Below the pieces are notes generated by a model. That model searched no databases. It was given only the letters and a program-made list of their open reading frames with translations, and was not told where the DNA came from. DNA of 48,276 nt from contig JAEUKQ010000006.1 in NCBI GenBank assembly GCA_016794225.1, positions 1-48,276 on the forward strand, read 5' to 3'. The position numbers and the translations under genes were made by a program. The DNA is from Alphaproteobacteria bacterium (GTDB lineage: Bacteria; Pseudomonadota; Alphaproteobacteria; JAEUKQ01). This document shows, piece by piece, positions 27,260 to 38,662 of this stretch (positions are counted from its first letter, which is position 1; each line of letters begins with the position of its first letter).

Positions 27260-27414
27260 ATCACCTGTTATTCGTTTTATAGAGCCTATGAACCCTATAC
27301 ACCACCATATATTATCATATCAAAAGATATGCCGAAAAAATCTTAAAATATTAACAATCTTAAAGTGCAAGAACCAACCACCCTTGATTGCCTTCCTATT
27401 CAATAAAAAACAAA

Positions 27415-27564
27415 GAGCCGTATCTGCCGGTGGTTTTTATTTCTTCTGCGGCCCGCAACAAGCAGGTGGGCACCATATACCAAGACCACGATCCTGGCAG
27501 GGACAGTCCCCTAGAAGATAAGTATCGGCCCCAGGAATAGTTAACCTATCGAACAGAACAGCTC
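27415..27564 (-). ncRNA. ssrS: 6S RNA
   Basis: A roughly 150-base transcript on the minus strand fills the gap between zapA and 5-FCL, the conserved 6S locus. Its ends pair: GAGCTGTTCTG at the 5' end (27564 downward) with CAGATACGGCTC at the 3' end (one bulged base), closing the long hairpin. The interior holds GGGGCCGATAC, the TAGGGGACTGTCCCT hairpin, GGTGCCCACCTGCTTGTTGCGGGCC and a GAAGAAATAAAAACC single-stranded side, as in alphaproteobacterial 6S RNAs. A run TTTGTTTTTT follows the 3' end. 6S RNA binds sigma-70 holoenzyme by mimicking an open promoter. The exact ends are estimated from the pairing. Confidence 0.82.
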
Positions 27565-27575
27565 ATGCGAGTACA

Positions 27576-27919: not shown

Positions 27920-28144
27920 TTATTCTTTCAGAATCAGCTTTAACCGGTTGATAATATAATCTAACCGATCAGAAACAGCTTTTGTCTCTTGTTGCAATAA
28001 TTGATACCGGTCATGCAAATTCTTTAAATCCTTTTCAAGAGCTTGTTTTTCTTTAAAATAGGAAAGTTGATTTTGTGTAATATCAGATTCCAACCTCGAA
28101 AGCGATACCGCCAGATGATCTATCAGCTGATGTAAATCCCTCAT
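27920..28144 (-). CDS. Small coiled-coil protein upstream of zapA (DUF4164-like)
   Basis: The 74-residue protein is almost entirely a predicted coiled coil, with heptad hydrophobics from LHQLIDHLAVSLSRLE through LEKDLKNLHDRYQLLQQE to a C-terminal LDYIINRLKLILKE. It has no signal peptide or membrane helix. Alphaproteobacteria often encode a short DUF4164 coiled-coil protein directly before zapA, and this matches by size, structure and position. It could be functionally linked to ZapA at the division ring, as ZapB is in gammaproteobacteria; that is inference. The gap to zapA is 32 bases. Confidence 0.72.
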   Translation of the reverse strand: MRDLHQLIDHLAVSLSRLESDITQNQLSYFKEKQALEKDLKNLHDRYQLLQQETKAVSDRLDYIINRLKLILKE

Positions 28145-28220: not shown

Positions 28221-28460
28221 TTATTCAATCCTTTTTAAGGGGCATTGGGATAAATGGCAAGACTTAATCAAAGAAAGTGGTTGGTGGATTTGACATAAAT
28301 GACAGTAAATCATATTCTCGCGCCGTCCGCTCTCTTTTTCAACTGAACGATTTTCATGCTTGTTTTTCTTTAACTGATTGTAGAGCCGGACAAACCACCA
28401 TAATCCGATGACCCCTATTATTATCAATATTGACTTAAATAAGCCGGCTAGCGTAACCAC
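28221..28460 (-). CDS. Small membrane protein with C-terminal Cys motif (PP0621-like)
   Basis: The 79-residue protein has one membrane helix (about residues 8-25: SILIIIGVIGLWWFVRLY). A basic linker follows, then a short C-terminal domain with YCHLCQIHQPL (Cys-x2-Cys) and a later SCHLSQCP pair, likely a small zinc ribbon. This is the layout of PP0621-family proteins. I chose the GTG at 28460 because AAGGGAG lies exactly six bases upstream; the frame extends to a TTG at 28490, but that would bury the binding site. Its function is unknown. It is divergent from the acyl-CoA dehydrogenase homologue. Confidence 0.65.
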   Translation of the reverse strand: MVTLAGLFKSILIIIGVIGLWWFVRLYNQLKKNKHENRSVEKESGRRENMIYCHLCQIHQPLSLIKSCHLSQCPLKRIE

Positions 28461-28590
28461 AACAATCTCCCTTAAATAAAGTGATGACAAACATAGCCTA
28501 ATCTCATATTAATTAATCTATCGCCGTGTAAATAAATTATTAGCCTGTTTCTAGAACATTGTAAAATGTTTCCCTTTATCTAGGTTGAGT

Positions 28591-30375
28591 ATGTCAAAAT
28601 ATATAGCACCAATTCGTGAGATGGTTTTTGGACTTGATGAGATTGTCCAACTTCCGGAGATTTTATCTTTTAAACAAACTGCGAAAAAGAGTGCACCAAA
28701 ATTTGACGTTGCCTGGTTTGATCAAGCGCAACGTTTTGCAACCGAGTTTTTATTGCCTTTATCCACCCCCGAGAATCAAGAAGAAAGTATCGATCATTCC
28801 GGACAAGTTATTTGTCCACCTGGATTTGAACGGGCGTTCCAAGAATTTTATCGCCAGGGTTGGATGCATCCTTTGCATCAAAATAATATAACACAACCCA
28901 TATGCTGGTCGTTGCAAGTTGCATTACACGAGATATGGAATGCCGCCTGCCCCTCGTTAGCAGCAGTTTTTATTAATAGTCTTGTATGTTTTAATACGAT
29001 ACAAGAATATGCCAGCCAGGAATTACAGCAGGCATTTTTACCACGACTTTTACATGGACATTTAACAGCCAGCCTAGCTTTAACAGAAGAACAAGCCGGA
29101 TCAGATATACGCGCAATCAAAACAAAAGCCTGGCCTGTTGGCCAACATTTTCGTTTAAGCGGCCATAAACAATGGGTTAGCTACGGACAACATTCGCTAA
29201 CCGAGGAAAAAATATATCTCACACTAGCCCGTCTTCAGGGAAGCCCAATTAGTGGCGAGCAATTATCTTTATTCATTGTACCACAGTTGACTGGTATTGA
29301 ACATAACCCAGATTTGCTGAATGATATATTATGCCAAAGCCTTGAAAAAAAATTTGCCTTTCCGGGTTGTCCGATTGCCAATATTAATTTTGGGACAAGC
29401 CAGGGGGCTGTCGCTTTTGCTGTGGGTAATCAGCAAAAAGGGCTTGGTTACATTGAAGATTTATTACAAATCCAACGCTTAATGATTTGTGCGCAAAACC
29501 TAGGAATCTGCGAACGCACTTACCAAGAAAGTGTTTTTTATGCGCGCAACCGAATTCAAGGACACACCACAAAAAATTCTGGCAGTTCGCCAATTATTAT
29601 GCACCCCGATATCCGACGTCTTTTGATGACAATGCGTACACTTATTCAAGCAATGCGTCATGGTGTTTACTTTACAGCCGGTGCTCTTGATCGAGCACGC
29701 AATCACTTTGATACGCAAGAACAACAACGTTATCTCGGATTATTTACCCTATTGCTGCCTATTTTAAAAACATGGTCCAGCCAGTACAGCGTACATTTAA
29801 CGACTTTAGCAACACATATTCATGGTGCCGCTGGCAATCGTAGTGATTCGATTATCCTGCAAAACATTCATAACACTTTAGCCAGTTTTTCACACGGCGG
29901 TACTAGTGGTATGCTATGTCAGCATGTTATTCAACAAGAGTTAATAGATAAAAATGGCACTTCTGTTCGCGTTTTTCTTGATGGCATGCGCGAAACAATA
30001 CCAACATTAACCCGTGAACTTGGTGAAGAGGGAACATCAATTAGATTTTCTTTAGAAGCAAGTATCGATGCGCTTGAAGAAACAACAGACTGGATTTTAG
30101 AGAATTACCGGCAGCACACAGCCCGAATCCTGGCTGGATCTGTCCCCTACGTGCACCTTTTCGGTACGGTCTATTTAGGTTGGCTTCTGACCGAGGCAGT
30201 AATTGCCAGTAAGCGCTTGTTTAATATGGCCAAGATTGATCCAGCTACTTACCAAAATAAATTGCTTACGGCCAAATTTTATGCTGATGCAATTTTGCCG
30301 CAAGCCGAGCAGGATGCTATTACCGTTATGGGTGGATGTTCAACAATTCTTGAAATGCCAATTGTTTCATTATAA
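28591..30375 (+). CDS. Acyl-CoA dehydrogenase homologue (DmdC-like), catalytic Glu apparently lost
   Basis: The 594-residue protein has the full architecture of the DmdC-like branch of acyl-CoA dehydrogenases. It has an N-terminal extension, the FAD/substrate region LALTEEQAGSDIRAIKTKA and SGHKQWVSYG, the helical bundle with ERTYQESVFYARNRIQG and MHPDIRRLLMTMRTL, and the extra C-terminal bundle (YVHLFGTVYLGWLL). However, the block that reads HGGxGYxEE...RDARIxxIYEGTNG in active members reads HGAAGNRSD...HNTLASFSHGGTSG here. This aligns without gaps and places Gly436 where the catalytic base Glu sits. It is probably not a normal dehydrogenase. The ATG at 28591 has AGG six bases upstream; a TTG at 28585 is less likely. 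Confidence 0.85.
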   Translation: MSKYIAPIREMVFGLDEIVQLPEILSFKQTAKKSAPKFDVAWFDQAQRFATEFLLPLSTPENQEESIDHSGQVICPPGFERAFQEFYRQGWMHPLHQNNITQPICWSLQVALHEIWNAACPSLAAVFINSLVCFNTIQEYASQELQQAFLPRLLHGHLTASLALTEEQAGSDIRAIKTKAWPVGQHFRLSGHKQWVSYGQHSLTEEKIYLTLARLQGSPISGEQLSLFIVPQLTGIEHNPDLLNDILCQSLEKKFAFPGCPIANINFGTSQGAVAFAVGNQQKGLGYIEDLLQIQRLMICAQNLGICERTYQESVFYARNRIQGHTTKNSGSSPIIMHPDIRRLLMTMRTLIQAMRHGVYFTAGALDRARNHFDTQEQQRYLGLFTLLLPILKTWSSQYSVHLTTLATHIHGAAGNRSDSIILQNIHNTLASFSHGGTSGMLCQHVIQQELIDKNGTSVRVFLDGMRETIPTLTRELGEEGTSIRFSLEASIDALEETTDWILENYRQHTARILAGSVPYVHLFGTVYLGWLLTEAVIASKRLFNMAKIDPATYQNKLLTAKFYADAILPQAEQDAITVMGGCSTILEMPIVSL

Positions 30376-32963: not shown

Positions 32964-33000
32964 ATTAGCCACGTGTTACTTTTCAATAAGGAATATGGCA

Positions 33001-34239
33001 ATGCCACATACCGAGACATCAAAGCATGGTCCTTTACATGGGCTAAGGGTTTTAGATCTAACCCGTATTTTAGCTGGACCAACTTGTACCCAATTATTGG
33101 GTGATTTGGGTGCAGATATAATTAAGATTGAAAAACCCGAAGCAGGTGACGATACAAGAAAATGGGGCCCGCCTTATGTTAAAGGCGACAATGGAAAAGA
33201 TACTAGCGAAAGTGCCTATTATTTATCATCTAATCGCAACAAGCGATCAGTTGCCATTGATATTGCACACCCCAAAGGGCAGAAGCTAATCAGAAATCTT
33301 ATAAAACACTGTGATATATTAATTGAAAATTTTAAGGTTGGCGATATGGACAGGTATGGCCTATCATATGCCAAGTTATCTGGCGATTTTCCAAAATTAA
33401 TTTATTGCTCTATCACTGGTTTTGGTCAAACAGGACCTTATGCCAACCGCCCAGGATATGATTTTTTAGCACAAGCAATGGGCGGATTAATGAGCATCAC
33501 CGGCGACCCCGCTGGCGCACCAACTAAAGTTGGGGTGGCGGTGGCGGATTTGATGTGCGGGATGTATGCGTCTGTGGCTGTTTTAGCCGCTCTTCATCAC
33601 CGTAATACATACCACCAGGGACAATATATTGACCTTGGGTTATTTGACACCCAAGTTGCCTGGCTGGCCAATGTAGGACTTAATTACTTGGTTTCTCAAC
33701 AGATACCGAAACGAATGGGTAATGAACATCCGAATATTGTTCCTTATACCGTCATGCCTTGCCAGGACGGCTATTTTGTTTTGGCCGTCGGTAACGATCA
33801 ACAATTTCAACAGTTTTGTAAGGTAGCTAAAACAACTCTTGCTGATGACCCACGTTTCACCACAAATAGCAATCGGGTAAAAAACCGTGAATTGCTTTAT
33901 CCATTGCTGCGTGATATTACCAATCAGCACCCCCAAAAATTTTGGGTGGATCATTTAACAGCAGCCAATGTCCCTTGCAGCCCAGTTAATGATATACCCC
34001 AAGTTTTTGCAGATCCACAAATTATGGCACGCAATATGAAAATATCCATGAATTATCCGCTAGCAGCCAGTAAAAAGGTTGATCTGATTGGCAACCCTAT
34101 TAACATGTCGCAAACTCCTGTAACCTATAGATATGCTCCACCCCAGCTTGGTGCACATAGCCAGGAAGTTTTGCAAAATATGCTTGGCCTATCCCAAGCT
34201 GAAATTACCGATCTTTATCACCAAAAAATTATTGGTTAG
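33001..34239 (+). CDS. CaiB/BaiF family CoA-transferase
   Basis: The 412-residue protein is a family III CoA-transferase that moves CoA between carboxylic acids through a glutamyl/aspartyl-CoA mechanism. It opens with GLRVLDLTRILAGPTCTQLLGDLGADIIKIEKP, then has NRNKRSVAIDI and GYDFLAQAMGGLMSITG. The expected active-site Asp lies in VGVAVADLMCGM. The substrate pair cannot be read from sequence; formyl-, succinyl- or acetyl-CoA partners are all possible. I prefer ATG 33001, eight bases after AAGGA, over the ATG at 32995, which is too close. It follows ruvX and ends 52 bases from the convergent secreted-protein gene. Confidence 0.93.
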   Translation: MPHTETSKHGPLHGLRVLDLTRILAGPTCTQLLGDLGADIIKIEKPEAGDDTRKWGPPYVKGDNGKDTSESAYYLSSNRNKRSVAIDIAHPKGQKLIRNLIKHCDILIENFKVGDMDRYGLSYAKLSGDFPKLIYCSITGFGQTGPYANRPGYDFLAQAMGGLMSITGDPAGAPTKVGVAVADLMCGMYASVAVLAALHHRNTYHQGQYIDLGLFDTQVAWLANVGLNYLVSQQIPKRMGNEHPNIVPYTVMPCQDGYFVLAVGNDQQFQQFCKVAKTTLADDPRFTTNSNRVKNRELLYPLLRDITNQHPQKFWVDHLTAANVPCSPVNDIPQVFADPQIMARNMKISMNYPLAASKKVDLIGNPINMSQTPVTYRYAPPQLGAHSQEVLQNMLGLSQAEITDLYHQKIIG

Positions 34240-34290: not shown

Positions 34291-35922
34291 CTAATCCGCC
34301 AACACATGATAAAGCAACAACAAGGGTTTTCCAGCACTTGCCGCAACATGATTATTTGGGGTGTCACTAAGTGGCGCTGGATTAAACACCATAATAAAGA
34401 TCGATCGATTATTAGGGCTAAAAACTTGATCGAAACTGCTGTAATATTTAATTCCTTGCTTATCTTGGTCTAAATTTGGCAACAGCAAACTATTCTGAAG
34501 GTCGGATGCAATCAACACATGCTCGCGCATAACCCCTTCACTTGATAAAGTATATAAGCTTAGACCGAGAGATAAATCAGCAGCAACTTGCCTTAAGTGA
34601 TCCAGCGGACAAATTGGTGGCTTACCATTCAAATAATAGTCTGGTTCTGGGCTACAGCCAAAGGAAGATATGTTTTTATTATATTTTTGGATCAAAAAAT
34701 AATACTGATTATTAACTGGGGAAATGATCACCCCTTCCAAAACACCCTTTCTTGTACCGTCCTCAAAACGTATGATCTTTTCCATTTCCAAAGCATAATC
34801 ATGGCTTATGATCTTTAAGCTGTTCTGTTGGCAATCTGCGTCAACTGTAAGGATATGTGGTTCCAATTCTCCGACCGATTTTGATCGCTCATAAGTTGTA
34901 AGTACAGGAAAAGAAATATGGCCATTTCTACTAAACATGCGATGTAGAAGCTCACTATAGAGCAATAATTGATTGGGTTTGTTAAGCAAGAACAAAGGAT
35001 ACCCATCAACCGCGAAAGAATTTTCAAAATTTCCATGCTGATCAAAACAAAAAAATATACTTCCACTACCCTCCACAAGTTCCATCTTTCTCTGCATATG
35101 ATTAAGTTTATAAAAAAACCATCTGCCAAACGCTTGAATCATTATGCGATTATCTGCTAACCCATATAAAGAAAATAAATTATATTGCTGCTCTAGAGCC
35201 CGATTACCTTGATAAGCTTTAACCGAATAAACATTATCAAGATGCAATCTGTCTAATTCTAATGATTCCATTGATTGACCAAGAACACCATCATTAAACT
35301 CATCGTTTTCATCAGCGTTGTATAGCTTGTCATCTGATGTCCAAAGATTCACCCCTCGATGTGAGTCAATGGCTGACAAAAAGTAATTTGTGGGCACATA
35401 AAAAAGATGTTCCGTACTTACTTCCCAGGGATATTCCAAGTTTTCTGCTAAAACCTGCACTACATTCCAAGCGTTTAGAAGGATAATTACCCCATCCGGT
35501 CTTAAAACAGCACTAATAATTTCCGGCAAATACTTTAACTGCCATATAGGCTGTTCGGGTTTATTGGGGTTAATCAATTTTACTGACCGGTTTTCCTCGG
35601 CTCGGTCCCAAATTAACCAACGATCAAAACCCAATATTAACAATAATTTTTGATTTCCTTGTTGATTGACCAGATGTTCTTGCAAAATATGCCCTGATTC
35701 ATCAAAATTAACCACCCACCACTGATACAGTCTTTGATTATTAACCCATGTTTGCATCACACAAATCAAAGTGGTTAAATTTTTGTTTTCGGAAAACTCG
35801 CAAGATTCCAAAAAACCATCTGGCTGTTTTAAGGGTATTTGGGTTACTTTGCTTTCCTGAGCATAAGCAGATAGGCTTAAATACAACAATGCCAGGAGAG
35901 ATAGGTAAAAAATACGCAACAT
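34291..35922 (-). CDS. Orphan secreted protein, 543 residues
   Basis: I do not recognise this protein. It begins with a signal peptide (MLRIFYLSLLALLYLSLSAYAQ, cleavage near AYA-Q), and the mature part is aromatic- and Asn-rich with many beta-strand-like segments. Repeating pieces such as LLILGFDRWLIWDRAEEN, IISAVLRPDGVIILLN and VFSPNNRSIFIMVFN suggest a beta-propeller-like fold, with the last resembling a PD40-type FSPNN unit; this is only a suggestion. It has scattered cysteines (CEFSENKN, LICVM, FGCSPEP, PPICPLD). The ATG follows CAGGGGTTAC. It is probably monocistronic, behind a candidate terminator after the nicotinate phosphoribosyltransferase gene. Confidence 0.75.
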   Translation of the reverse strand: MLRIFYLSLLALLYLSLSAYAQESKVTQIPLKQPDGFLESCEFSENKNLTTLICVMQTWVNNQRLYQWWVVNFDESGHILQEHLVNQQGNQKLLLILGFDRWLIWDRAEENRSVKLINPNKPEQPIWQLKYLPEIISAVLRPDGVIILLNAWNVVQVLAENLEYPWEVSTEHLFYVPTNYFLSAIDSHRGVNLWTSDDKLYNADENDEFNDGVLGQSMESLELDRLHLDNVYSVKAYQGNRALEQQYNLFSLYGLADNRIMIQAFGRWFFYKLNHMQRKMELVEGSGSIFFCFDQHGNFENSFAVDGYPLFLLNKPNQLLLYSELLHRMFSRNGHISFPVLTTYERSKSVGELEPHILTVDADCQQNSLKIISHDYALEMEKIIRFEDGTRKGVLEGVIISPVNNQYYFLIQKYNKNISSFGCSPEPDYYLNGKPPICPLDHLRQVAADLSLGLSLYTLSSEGVMREHVLIASDLQNSLLLPNLDQDKQGIKYYSSFDQVFSPNNRSIFIMVFNPAPLSDTPNNHVAASAGKPLLLLYHVLAD

Positions 35923-36017: not shown

Positions 36018-37172
36018 TTAGTTTTTCTTGCGAAATAAAAATTCACGGCCTAATTTCACCCGTTGTTGGCCATTATATTCGATAATATCAGCCGTGGCGT
36101 AGGTTTCGGTCCAAACTTGCGGTAAATAAGAACCTGTTCCAATAACATCGATTGGTGCTTTGGCGTCTGCCATTACCTTGCATTTCAACGGATCAAAACC
36201 AGATGATCCAACAATTTTTACCTTATGAAAGCCATGCTGATCCAGCGCCTGGCGCAAGTGAAAAATAGATGCCACAGAAACACCCGCCCCAACTAAATAT
36301 TTTAATTCAGCCTCGGTACGATAGCCACGAATAGCTTGCGGAGCAAATTGATCCAATACCGTGTATGATTTGGTTTGATCAAGCCCTTCCATAAAACGGC
36401 TTCCAGGCGTGTCAAGCCGAATGCTAAGACGCCCCTGTGTTATTAAATGCCTAAAATGCCTGCAGACTTCAAGACTGTCTGTGATTTCACATCCAAAATA
36501 ATCAACCAAAGCGGTTAACGGTTCTTGTGGAAACATTTGATGAAACATTTGCACAGCTTTTAATGTAGACCCTGCATAACCAATAAGCGCATGAGGCATC
36601 GTGCCCAAAGCATCTGATCTACCAAAATATTTTGCTGTCGCAGCTGTTGCATTCCCGATAAAACCCCTAGCTCCAACCGTGCGTTTTGCCGCCTCTGAAC
36701 CAACGCTAGCGGCGTAAGCCATCATCTCTGTCATTTCAAGACCGGCGCAATGACGGGCATCCATGGCAATAAAAGCTACATTGGGCAAATCGGAACACAT
36801 GATATAAGCATTAAAGGCTGCAACACAAACAGGACCTAGTTTTTGTAAAAACAGTGTTTCCAAATCAGCTAACGCAGCAAAAGAACCTGTAATATACAAA
36901 ATCGGCTCGCCAGCACCAACCCAATCACCTTCTGGATAAAGACATTCAATATCAAAATGTGTTCCACGCAACTTGGCAACTTCCTGCAGCCAGGTAATAA
37001 TTAGCCGCGGTGCTGAAATAACCGGCCGGCGCATAAAAACCGCATAAGTTACCGTATTGTCGCCAAATTTCTGAACTATTTTCTTGGTACTTAGAAAATA
37101 GTGATCTGTCCATGAGGTGATTGTTTCTTCAACTGTTGAAGAATTATGTACAACAGAATCTTTTTTTACCAT
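36018..37172 (-). CDS. Nicotinate phosphoribosyltransferase-family protein
   Basis: The 384-residue protein belongs to the nicotinate/quinolinate phosphoribosyltransferase fold and most resembles the nicotinate enzymes (PncB-like) that make nicotinate mononucleotide for NAD salvage. Visible features are DHYFLSTKKIVQKFGD near the N-terminus, the MDARHCAGLEM block, VGARGFIGNATAATAKYFG, SIRLDTPGSRFMEG, and the phosphate-binding VGSSGFDP. I use ATG 37172, preceded by TTAGGAAA, because the upstream frame runs into the aldehyde dehydrogenase gene. It lies only eight bases after that gene, so the two form an operon. Confidence 0.88.
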   Translation of the reverse strand: MVKKDSVVHNSSTVEETITSWTDHYFLSTKKIVQKFGDNTVTYAVFMRRPVISAPRLIITWLQEVAKLRGTHFDIECLYPEGDWVGAGEPILYITGSFAALADLETLFLQKLGPVCVAAFNAYIMCSDLPNVAFIAMDARHCAGLEMTEMMAYAASVGSEAAKRTVGARGFIGNATAATAKYFGRSDALGTMPHALIGYAGSTLKAVQMFHQMFPQEPLTALVDYFGCEITDSLEVCRHFRHLITQGRLSIRLDTPGSRFMEGLDQTKSYTVLDQFAPQAIRGYRTEAELKYLVGAGVSVASIFHLRQALDQHGFHKVKIVGSSGFDPLKCKVMADAKAPIDVIGTGSYLPQVWTETYATADIIEYNGQQRVKLGREFLFRKKN

Positions 37173-37180
37173 TTCGTTTC

Positions 37181-38662
37181 CTAAACAGCGCCGTGCACGC
37201 CCCCCAAACATACATATTTTATCTCGATAAAATCCTCAATACCATACTTGGAACCTTCACGCCCCATCCCACTTTCCTTAATACCGCCAAAAGGAGCAAC
37301 TTCGGTTGAGATAATCCCTGTATTAACCCCAACAATACCGCATTCAAGCGCTTCGGCCACACGCCAAACCCTTGCAACATCACGACTATAGAAATAACCC
37401 GCTAATCCATATTCGCTGGAATTAGCGAGTGTGATAGCCTCTTGTTCAGTTTTAAACCGAAAAAGCGGGGCTAAAGGACCAAAAGTTTCCTCACGCGCAA
37501 CCATCATATCTGATGTTACACCGGTCATAACAGTTGGTTCGAAGAAACTATGGCCTAGGCTATGTTTCTTGCCACCAACAATAAGTTTTGCCCCTTTCTT
37601 TAGGGCATCATCAATATGTTGTTCAACTTTTGCAACGGCTTTCATATCAATCAAAGGCCCCTGCTGAATACCTGGTTCTACACCATTTCCAACCTTTAGG
37701 TTATGTACAGCATCCCCCAATTTTTTAGCAAAAACATCATAAACTTTATCCTGAACCAACAACCGATTAGCACAAACACATGTCTGACCTGTGTTGCGAA
37801 ATTTTGAAGCCAGTGCCCCATCAACCGCTGCATCCAAATCAGCATCATCAAAAACAATGAAGGGTGCATTCCCGCCTAATTCAAGAGACAGCTTTTTAAC
37901 TGTACCTGCACATTGTTGCATCAAAATTTTCCCAACCTCGGTTGATCCGGTGAAACTAACTTTTCGCACCAAAGGATTTGTTGTCAGCTCACGGCCAATA
38001 TCCTGTGCCGATCCGGTAACAATATTTATAACTCCAGCGGGAAAACCGGCGCGTTCCGCCAACGCTACCAAGGCAAAAGCTGACAAGGGCGTTTGCGTGG
38101 CTGGTTTGATGACGACCGTACAACCGGCGGCCAAGGCAGGGCCGCATTTCCGGGTAATCATGGCATTAGGAAAATTCCACGGCGTAATGGCGGCAACCAC
38201 ACCAACCGGCTGTTTCAGCACCATAATTCTTTTATCAGGCTGGGGATGTGGGATAATATCACCATAAATGCGTTTAGCTTCTTCCGCAAACCATTCAATA
38301 AACGAGGCACCATATACAACCTCTGAGCGTGACTCGGTCAATGGCTTTCCCTGTTCGGCAGTCATAATCAAGGCTAGGTCTTCTTGGTGCTGCATAATAA
38401 GATTATACCATTGGCGCAATAAATTAGCGCGCTCCTTACCCGATTTTGCCCGCCATGCTGGCCACGCAGCCTGTGCGGCTGTAATTGCCCGCCTGGTTTC
38501 AACCCCTGTCATATAAGGAATTTCTACAATCAATTGGCCGGTTGCCGGATTTTTTACAGCAACCGTTTTTTGGTTATCTGCCCCAAGCCATTGCCCATTA
38601 ATGTACCCTAGTGGTTTTAGCAAGCCAGGGTCTTTTAAGTTTATAGATTTTATAGAATTCAT
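37181..38662 (-). CDS. gabD: Succinate-semialdehyde dehydrogenase (GabD-like)
   Basis: The 493-residue NAD(P)-dependent aldehyde dehydrogenase has VVAAITPWNFPNAMITRKCGPALAAGCTVVIKPA, the nucleotide-binding FTGSTEVGK, the general base in LELGGNAPFIVFDDADLD, and the nucleophilic cysteine in NTGQTCVCANR. Length and overall sequence fit the GabD branch, which oxidises succinic semialdehyde to succinate in GABA and related degradation. Glutarate-semialdehyde activity is also possible. No GABA transaminase is nearby. It is cotranscribed with the nicotinate phosphoribosyltransferase gene. Confidence 0.9.
   Translation of the reverse strand: MNSIKSINLKDPGLLKPLGYINGQWLGADNQKTVAVKNPATGQLIVEIPYMTGVETRRAITAAQAAWPAWRAKSGKERANLLRQWYNLIMQHQEDLALIMTAEQGKPLTESRSEVVYGASFIEWFAEEAKRIYGDIIPHPQPDKRIMVLKQPVGVVAAITPWNFPNAMITRKCGPALAAGCTVVIKPATQTPLSAFALVALAERAGFPAGVINIVTGSAQDIGRELTTNPLVRKVSFTGSTEVGKILMQQCAGTVKKLSLELGGNAPFIVFDDADLDAAVDGALASKFRNTGQTCVCANRLLVQDKVYDVFAKKLGDAVHNLKVGNGVEPGIQQGPLIDMKAVAKVEQHIDDALKKGAKLIVGGKKHSLGHSFFEPTVMTGVTSDMMVAREETFGPLAPLFRFKTEQEAITLANSSEYGLAGYFYSRDVARVWRVAEALECGIVGVNTGIISTEVAPFGGIKESGMGREGSKYGIEDFIEIKYVCLGGVHGAV

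Follow-up and report, generated by a model that had tools for sequence, protein, structure and literature searches.

An acyl-CoA dehydrogenase (ACAD) homologue encoded in the window (the whole stretch of DNA that was analysed, 48,276 nucleotides) has a glycine in place of the catalytic glutamate of its family and a glutamine at the other known position of the base. By descent and fold, the protein belongs to the long ACADs that carry PF12806 (DmdC/FadE1/FadE2/FadE5). Judged from its residues, it would be unable to take the alpha proton from acyl-CoA. We consider it somewhat better than an even bet that this is an ACAD-fold pseudoenzyme without dehydrogenase activity, retained for its dimer and C-terminal scaffold; some ligand binding may persist. 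The ACAD fold is a textbook case of a structure devoted to one reaction. If our reading is true, the gene shows how a bacterial enzyme from the fatty-acid-oxidising branch of the ACADs can become a scaffold, and it is a warning against labelling such genes acyl-CoA dehydrogenases. The features concerned are:

28,591 to 30,375, forward strand: DmdC/FadE2-like ACAD homologue, 594 aa, single open frame
29,473 to 29,475, forward strand: CAA codon (Gln297) in the column where isovaleryl-CoA and long-chain ACADs have their catalytic Glu, by alignment with the genome's own IVD-like protein
29,590 to 29,784, forward strand: helices 336-400, including HPDIRRLLMTMR, with 9 of 9 columns conserved at ≥95% kept
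29,812 to 29,947, forward strand: FAD-loop/RDARI/base block, about residues 410-454, in which HIHGAAG...HNTLASFSHGGTSG...CQHVIQQE replaces QVHGGMG...RDARI..IYEGTNG...ANDLVGRK
29,896 to 29,898, forward strand: GGC codon (Gly) at the catalytic Glu position, equivalent to MCAD Glu376, FadE1 Glu441, and FadE2 Glu442
30,031 to 30,360, forward strand: C-terminal PF12806 (Acyl-CoA_dh_C) helical domain, residues 483-592, scoring close to the family range

Family membership and predicted fold

The more likely start of the gene is the ATG at 28,591, with an AGG 6 nt upstream; an alternative in-frame TTG lies at 28,585. Pfam searches matched PF12806 (E = 1.9e-23), PF00441 (1e-16), and PF02770 (3e-10), and the score for the N-terminal ACAD domain, PF02771, fell slightly below its cut-off. 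None of the equivalog cut-offs was reached in an NCBIfam search of the protein. The long-ACAD family profile scored 456 bits and covered nearly the full length. The protein thus combines PF12806 and the three ACAD domains (N, M, and C1) with the full-length homology and fold that define the long ACAD family. Its nearest solved relatives by sequence were P. aeruginosa FadE2, FadE1, and Roseovarius DmdC, followed by mycobacterial FadE5. The codon usage of the gene falls inside the range of the adjacent genes, and we rejected assembly contamination on this ground.

An AlphaFold model made with 59 homologues had the full ACAD fold (pLDDT 88, pTM 0.91), and its top matches in the PDB were FadE2, FadE1, DmdC, and FadE5 (TM 0.87-0.93; FadE2 0.92, FadE1 0.93). 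Because the alignment behind it consists of canonical homologues, the model alone is no proof of folding, and the family fold would appear in it even for a partly degenerate protein. FadE1 (PA0506) and FadE2 (PA0508) of Pseudomonas aeruginosa, which share the length, domains, and fold of our protein, were the best match in sequence and structure (TM 0.92). These are fatty acyl-CoA-oxidising enzymes with Glu441 or Glu442 and a complete FAD loop, whereas the homologue described here is without those residues. DmdC (MMPA-CoA dehydrogenase, 6IJC) belongs to the same long family with a PF12806 domain; in comparison, our protein is without the Glu, the Gln, and the RDAR motif, and no DMSP pathway genes were found beside it.

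Loss of the catalytic base

A preliminary description of this DNA had read Gly436 as the counterpart of the catalytic Glu in a block that aligns without gaps, and our alignment bore this out. The block IHGAAGNRSDSIILQNIHNTLASFSHGGTSG was found where expected, and HIHGAAGNRSDSIILQNIHNTLASFSHGGTSG aligned gaplessly with the family sequence QVHGGMGFIEETGAAQHLRDARI..IYEGTNG in the sole open frame. The glycine is residue 438 when counted from the TTG at 28,585 and 436 from the ATG at 28,591. Glu occupied this column in all 131 homologues sampled, a set that includes loci from named genomes and whose nearest listed member is 34% identical to our protein; in a first sample of class relatives, the count was 50 of 50. 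The corresponding FadE1 Glu441 and FadE2 Glu442 are each the putative catalytic base (PMC11890623). We excluded a compensated frameshift or misread frame because the family profile runs without gaps through the block in a single frame, while the missing motif and the family signal are absent from the other frames.

In IVD and LCAD, the catalytic base sits on helix G (PMC11153573), and a carboxylate supplied from this position would make our protein an ordinary ACAD with nothing unusual about it. Four relatives do have Glu at the helix-G column. Our protein, however, has Gln297 there, and the Glu of FadE2 at this column is a tunnel residue, the base of that enzyme being elsewhere (PMC11890623). 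Proteins from the same genome provided internal controls: the IVD-like protein has Glu at the Gln297 column and Ala at the other base position, and the IBD-like and glutaryl-CoA-dehydrogenase-like (GCD-like) proteins keep the usual Glu, these labels being a reading of sequence and neighbourhood, with curated cut-offs not reached. The preliminary description had named a Glu elsewhere, as in isovaleryl-CoA dehydrogenase, among the findings that would be fatal to its claim; with Gln297 in that column, we rejected an IVD-type base and regard an ordinary enzyme of this sort as highly unlikely.

With Gly438 between helices J and K and Gln297 on helix G, neither known base position is therefore filled. 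Because the defining residue is missing at both, annotation as an acyl-CoA dehydrogenase would seem unwarranted without an assay. The alignment and the AlphaFold fold together support the earlier view that the base was lost from an otherwise foldable, full-length ACAD.

Wider changes in the active site

The preliminary description had also noted a changed RDARI segment, which indeed reads HNTLA, and had taken the rest of the enzyme and its frame to be intact. The latter holds for length, frame, and predicted fold but not for conserved residues, since 48 of the 100 columns conserved at ≥95% differ in our protein. Other rows of the alignment depart from these columns at 0-5 positions, the two exceptions being a truncated sequence (16) and one further outlier (20). 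Among the altered positions are the FAD-loop Gln (Q411H), the second Gly of HGG (G415A), R429 (R429H), and D430 (D430N), all changes in the FAD site, as well as D447 and R451; tunnel-lining and helix-G residues are altered as well. The branch leading to the homologue is the longest among 93 tree rows, with 4.8 changes per column compared with a median of 0.49, although part of this length is possibly inflated by saturation and the placement in the tree is unsure.

Several positions that we take, from general knowledge of the ACAD family, to contact FAD are retained, namely TE..GSD, Ser199, R323, Q325, G414, and T440. In ACADs, a Thr contacts flavin N5 (PMC5798300).

These retained positions, and four new histidines in the block (411, 429, 437, and 447), could point to an active flavoenzyme with another base or chemistry, for example with His437 (at the Tyr375 position) as the base or with a monooxygenase- or oxidase-type flavin reaction that needs no Glu. 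Monooxygenases with the ACAD fold, DszC among them, do without the catalytic Glu and provide a precedent. We nevertheless consider such chemistry improbable: the FAD-loop Gln and second Gly are gone, as is the RDAR/D447/R451 charge network; a count of five histidines over 48 residues, of which one is native, is a weak excess over 22 in 596; and the gene neighbourhood has no biosynthetic or catabolic pointer to a new substrate. A metal site formed by the four new histidines was rejected for the same weak excess. We found no support for a hydratase role, which had been among the functions suggested earlier.

Fatty-acid oxidation capacity of the genome

The draft genome (1.62 Mb, 147 contigs) encodes, by sequence, three short ACADs, each with its base kept, and no second long ACAD. 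The first lies in a leucine-degradation cluster beside HMG-CoA lyase and carboxylase-like genes, the second in a valine-degradation cluster with 3-hydroxyisobutyryl-CoA hydrolase and 3-hydroxyisobutyrate dehydrogenase, and the third beside transporter genes that look, by sequence, like a branched-chain amino acid system.

This inventory bears on whether the protein is the Glu-less subunit of a heteromeric ACAD. Heteromeric ACADs in which one subunit is without Glu do exist, as in the alpha2beta2 steroid ACADs with the base on one subunit (PMC8399759), and the ChsE-type enzymes resemble our protein in this respect. However, ChsE-type ACADs are paired subunits, the known cases come from adjacent genes (e.g., Scd1A/Scd1B), and in this genome there is neither an adjacent ACAD gene nor any such pair; each of the three short ACADs lies in a cluster of its own and has an intact base. 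We thus give this arrangement hardly any weight, and the partner role proposed in the preliminary description found no obvious ACAD to fill it.

Enoyl-CoA hydratases, thiolase, and ETF-QO are present in the genome. Across the 147-contig draft, the search for 3-hydroxyacyl-CoA dehydrogenase (PF02737) returned short, weak matches to the NAD domain, none of them convincing, and the ETF alpha and beta families were not found on any contig. Straight-chain beta-oxidation looks incomplete, which fits the loss of the original job of the ACAD homologue. The missing ETF may reflect an unusual electron acceptor or an assembly gap, the latter because ETF-QO and three ACADs are present.

The gene could accordingly be a decaying remnant: beta-oxidation was lost, constraint on a fadE-type gene relaxed, and the jobless sequence has drifted for a time before any stop or frameshift. 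The undetected ETF and unconvincing 3-hydroxyacyl-CoA dehydrogenase of the draft genome, the extreme branch length, the alteration of nearly half of the invariant positions, and the other genome of the order, which is without any long ACAD, are all consistent with such a history. We still judge it unlikely, if worth keeping in mind. The ETF absence is possibly an assembly gap, given the ETF-QO, unconstrained divergence of such size should have produced many stops, and the loss is far from even, sparing helices 336-400 and the C-terminal domain.

Uneven retention along the protein

A stop-free frame survived in just 0.3% of random-substitution runs that altered only 16% of residues. Conserved (≥95%) columns were kept at 11 of 37 positions in residues 286-335 and 401-455 and at 41 of 63 elsewhere (Fisher p = 0.0009, an optimistic value because the two residue blocks were picked after looking at the data). 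Segment scores relative to the family were -0.61 for the FAD/base block, which is below random replacement under the family profile, -0.14 for helix G, and 0.57 each for helices 336-400 and the C-terminal domain. The last two segments thus retain about 57% of the family mean signal, and the family profile gives scores close to zero for helix G, for the beta domain, and for the N-terminal domain. Retained segments differed from lost ones by 1.18; in 400 simulations of uniform decay matched to the total loss, this difference was never larger than 0.46. Uniform decay fails to reproduce this pattern. The preliminary description therefore understated the extent of change, in that degeneration is wider than the base and RDARI segments, yet it spares helices 336-400 and the C-terminal regions.

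Proposed role as a retained non-enzyme

Our favored reading of a retained pseudoenzyme starts from the loss of the base at both known positions and from a tunnel-lining helix and FAD/base block that are both heavily altered. The protein would still form the family dimer, as expected from homology, and would bind FAD weakly or not at all. It may have been retained as a non-enzymatic scaffold by way of its dimer and C-terminal (membrane- or partner-facing) surfaces; retention of these interfaces was judged per sequence segment, and the dimer itself is taken from homology. The reading predicts a folded dimer without dehydrogenase activity. The retained FAD-contact positions would be needless for a pure scaffold and count against it.

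The closest way of working may be that of human ACAD9, with nematode ACDH-11 second. Removal of FAD by ECSIT converts ACAD9 into an assembly factor (PMC10716376). In the complex I assembly (MCIA) complex, it serves as an FAD-free scaffold; it is a dimer with the ACAD fold and carries an additional C-terminal domain. A scaffold role of this kind is a working analogy: ACAD9 can still be a dehydrogenase, whereas the bacterial homologue has lost the base in its sequence. A less likely version is sequestration of acyl-CoA or an acyl ligand, as in C. elegans ACDH-11, which has the ACAD fold and sequesters C11/C12 fatty acids (PMC4741542) instead of feeding acyl chains to beta-oxidation. ACDH-11 is from a different ACAD subfamily, and acyl-CoA binding by our protein is putative. 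Binding without oxidation, as the preliminary description had suggested, is possible because Glu-to-Ala mutants of FadE1 and FadE5 crystallise with acyl-CoA bound (PMC11890623 and PDB matches from our structure search). The changes in tunnel and helix-G residues weaken this suggestion, and we disfavor sequestration for the same reason. Bd2924 of Bdellovibrio is another ACAD-fold protein with no observable dehydrogenase activity (PMC6851490); unlike our protein, it retains Glu, binds FAD and C10-CoA, and belongs to an AidB/ACDH-11-like subfamily.

Our boldest proposal is that a FadE/DmdC-type dehydrogenase turned into an obligate non-enzyme, a dimeric scaffold or ligand binder that would be a bacterial counterpart of ACAD9 or ACDH-11 and the sole Glu-less long ACAD among those sampled. 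We put this forward tentatively, with slightly less than even confidence.

Relatives and genomic neighborhood

Searches for exact peptides of our protein in the genomes of about 85,000 species found no orthologue, and neither did searches of viral contigs and of several hundred genomes from the same class and phylum. An alignment-based scan, with patterns that favour canonical members, returned at least 80 loci, all listed at ≤34% identity and with no orthologue among the matches listed. The absence of orthologues is not proven, and the case rests on one genome; because none was found, selection across species is unmeasurable. In the other genome of the order, no long ACAD was found and synteny around hemB was not conserved. 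L033, an ACAD homologue in another genome of the class, has one in-frame TGA according to the genome search.

The neighbors of the gene are zapA and 6S RNA (minus strand), hemB, a LysE-type transporter gene, and ruvX, an ordinary housekeeping neighborhood with no functional link and no hint of a partner. The 6S (SsrS) RNA (27,411-27,567, minus strand) is directly downstream of zapA and adjoins the gene for 5-FTHF cyclo-ligase. Two short minus-strand ORFs lie between zapA and the ACAD gene, one coiled-coil-like (27,920-28,144, 74 aa) and one with a hydrophobic segment near its start (28,221-28,490, 89 aa). Farther along, a class III CoA-transferase (32,995-34,239, forward strand) has succinate-glutarate CoA-transferase as its closest match, at a score under the model cut-off, and the glutaryl-CoA-dehydrogenase-like ACAD is on a different contig. 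A 543-aa ORF (34,291-35,922, minus strand) matched nothing in Pfam or NCBIfam at E 0.001. The 397-aa ORF at 36,018-37,211 (minus strand) had a sole match, just above the cut-off, to the N-domain of quinolinate phosphoribosyltransferase, and it adjoins an aldehyde dehydrogenase gene at 37,181-38,662.
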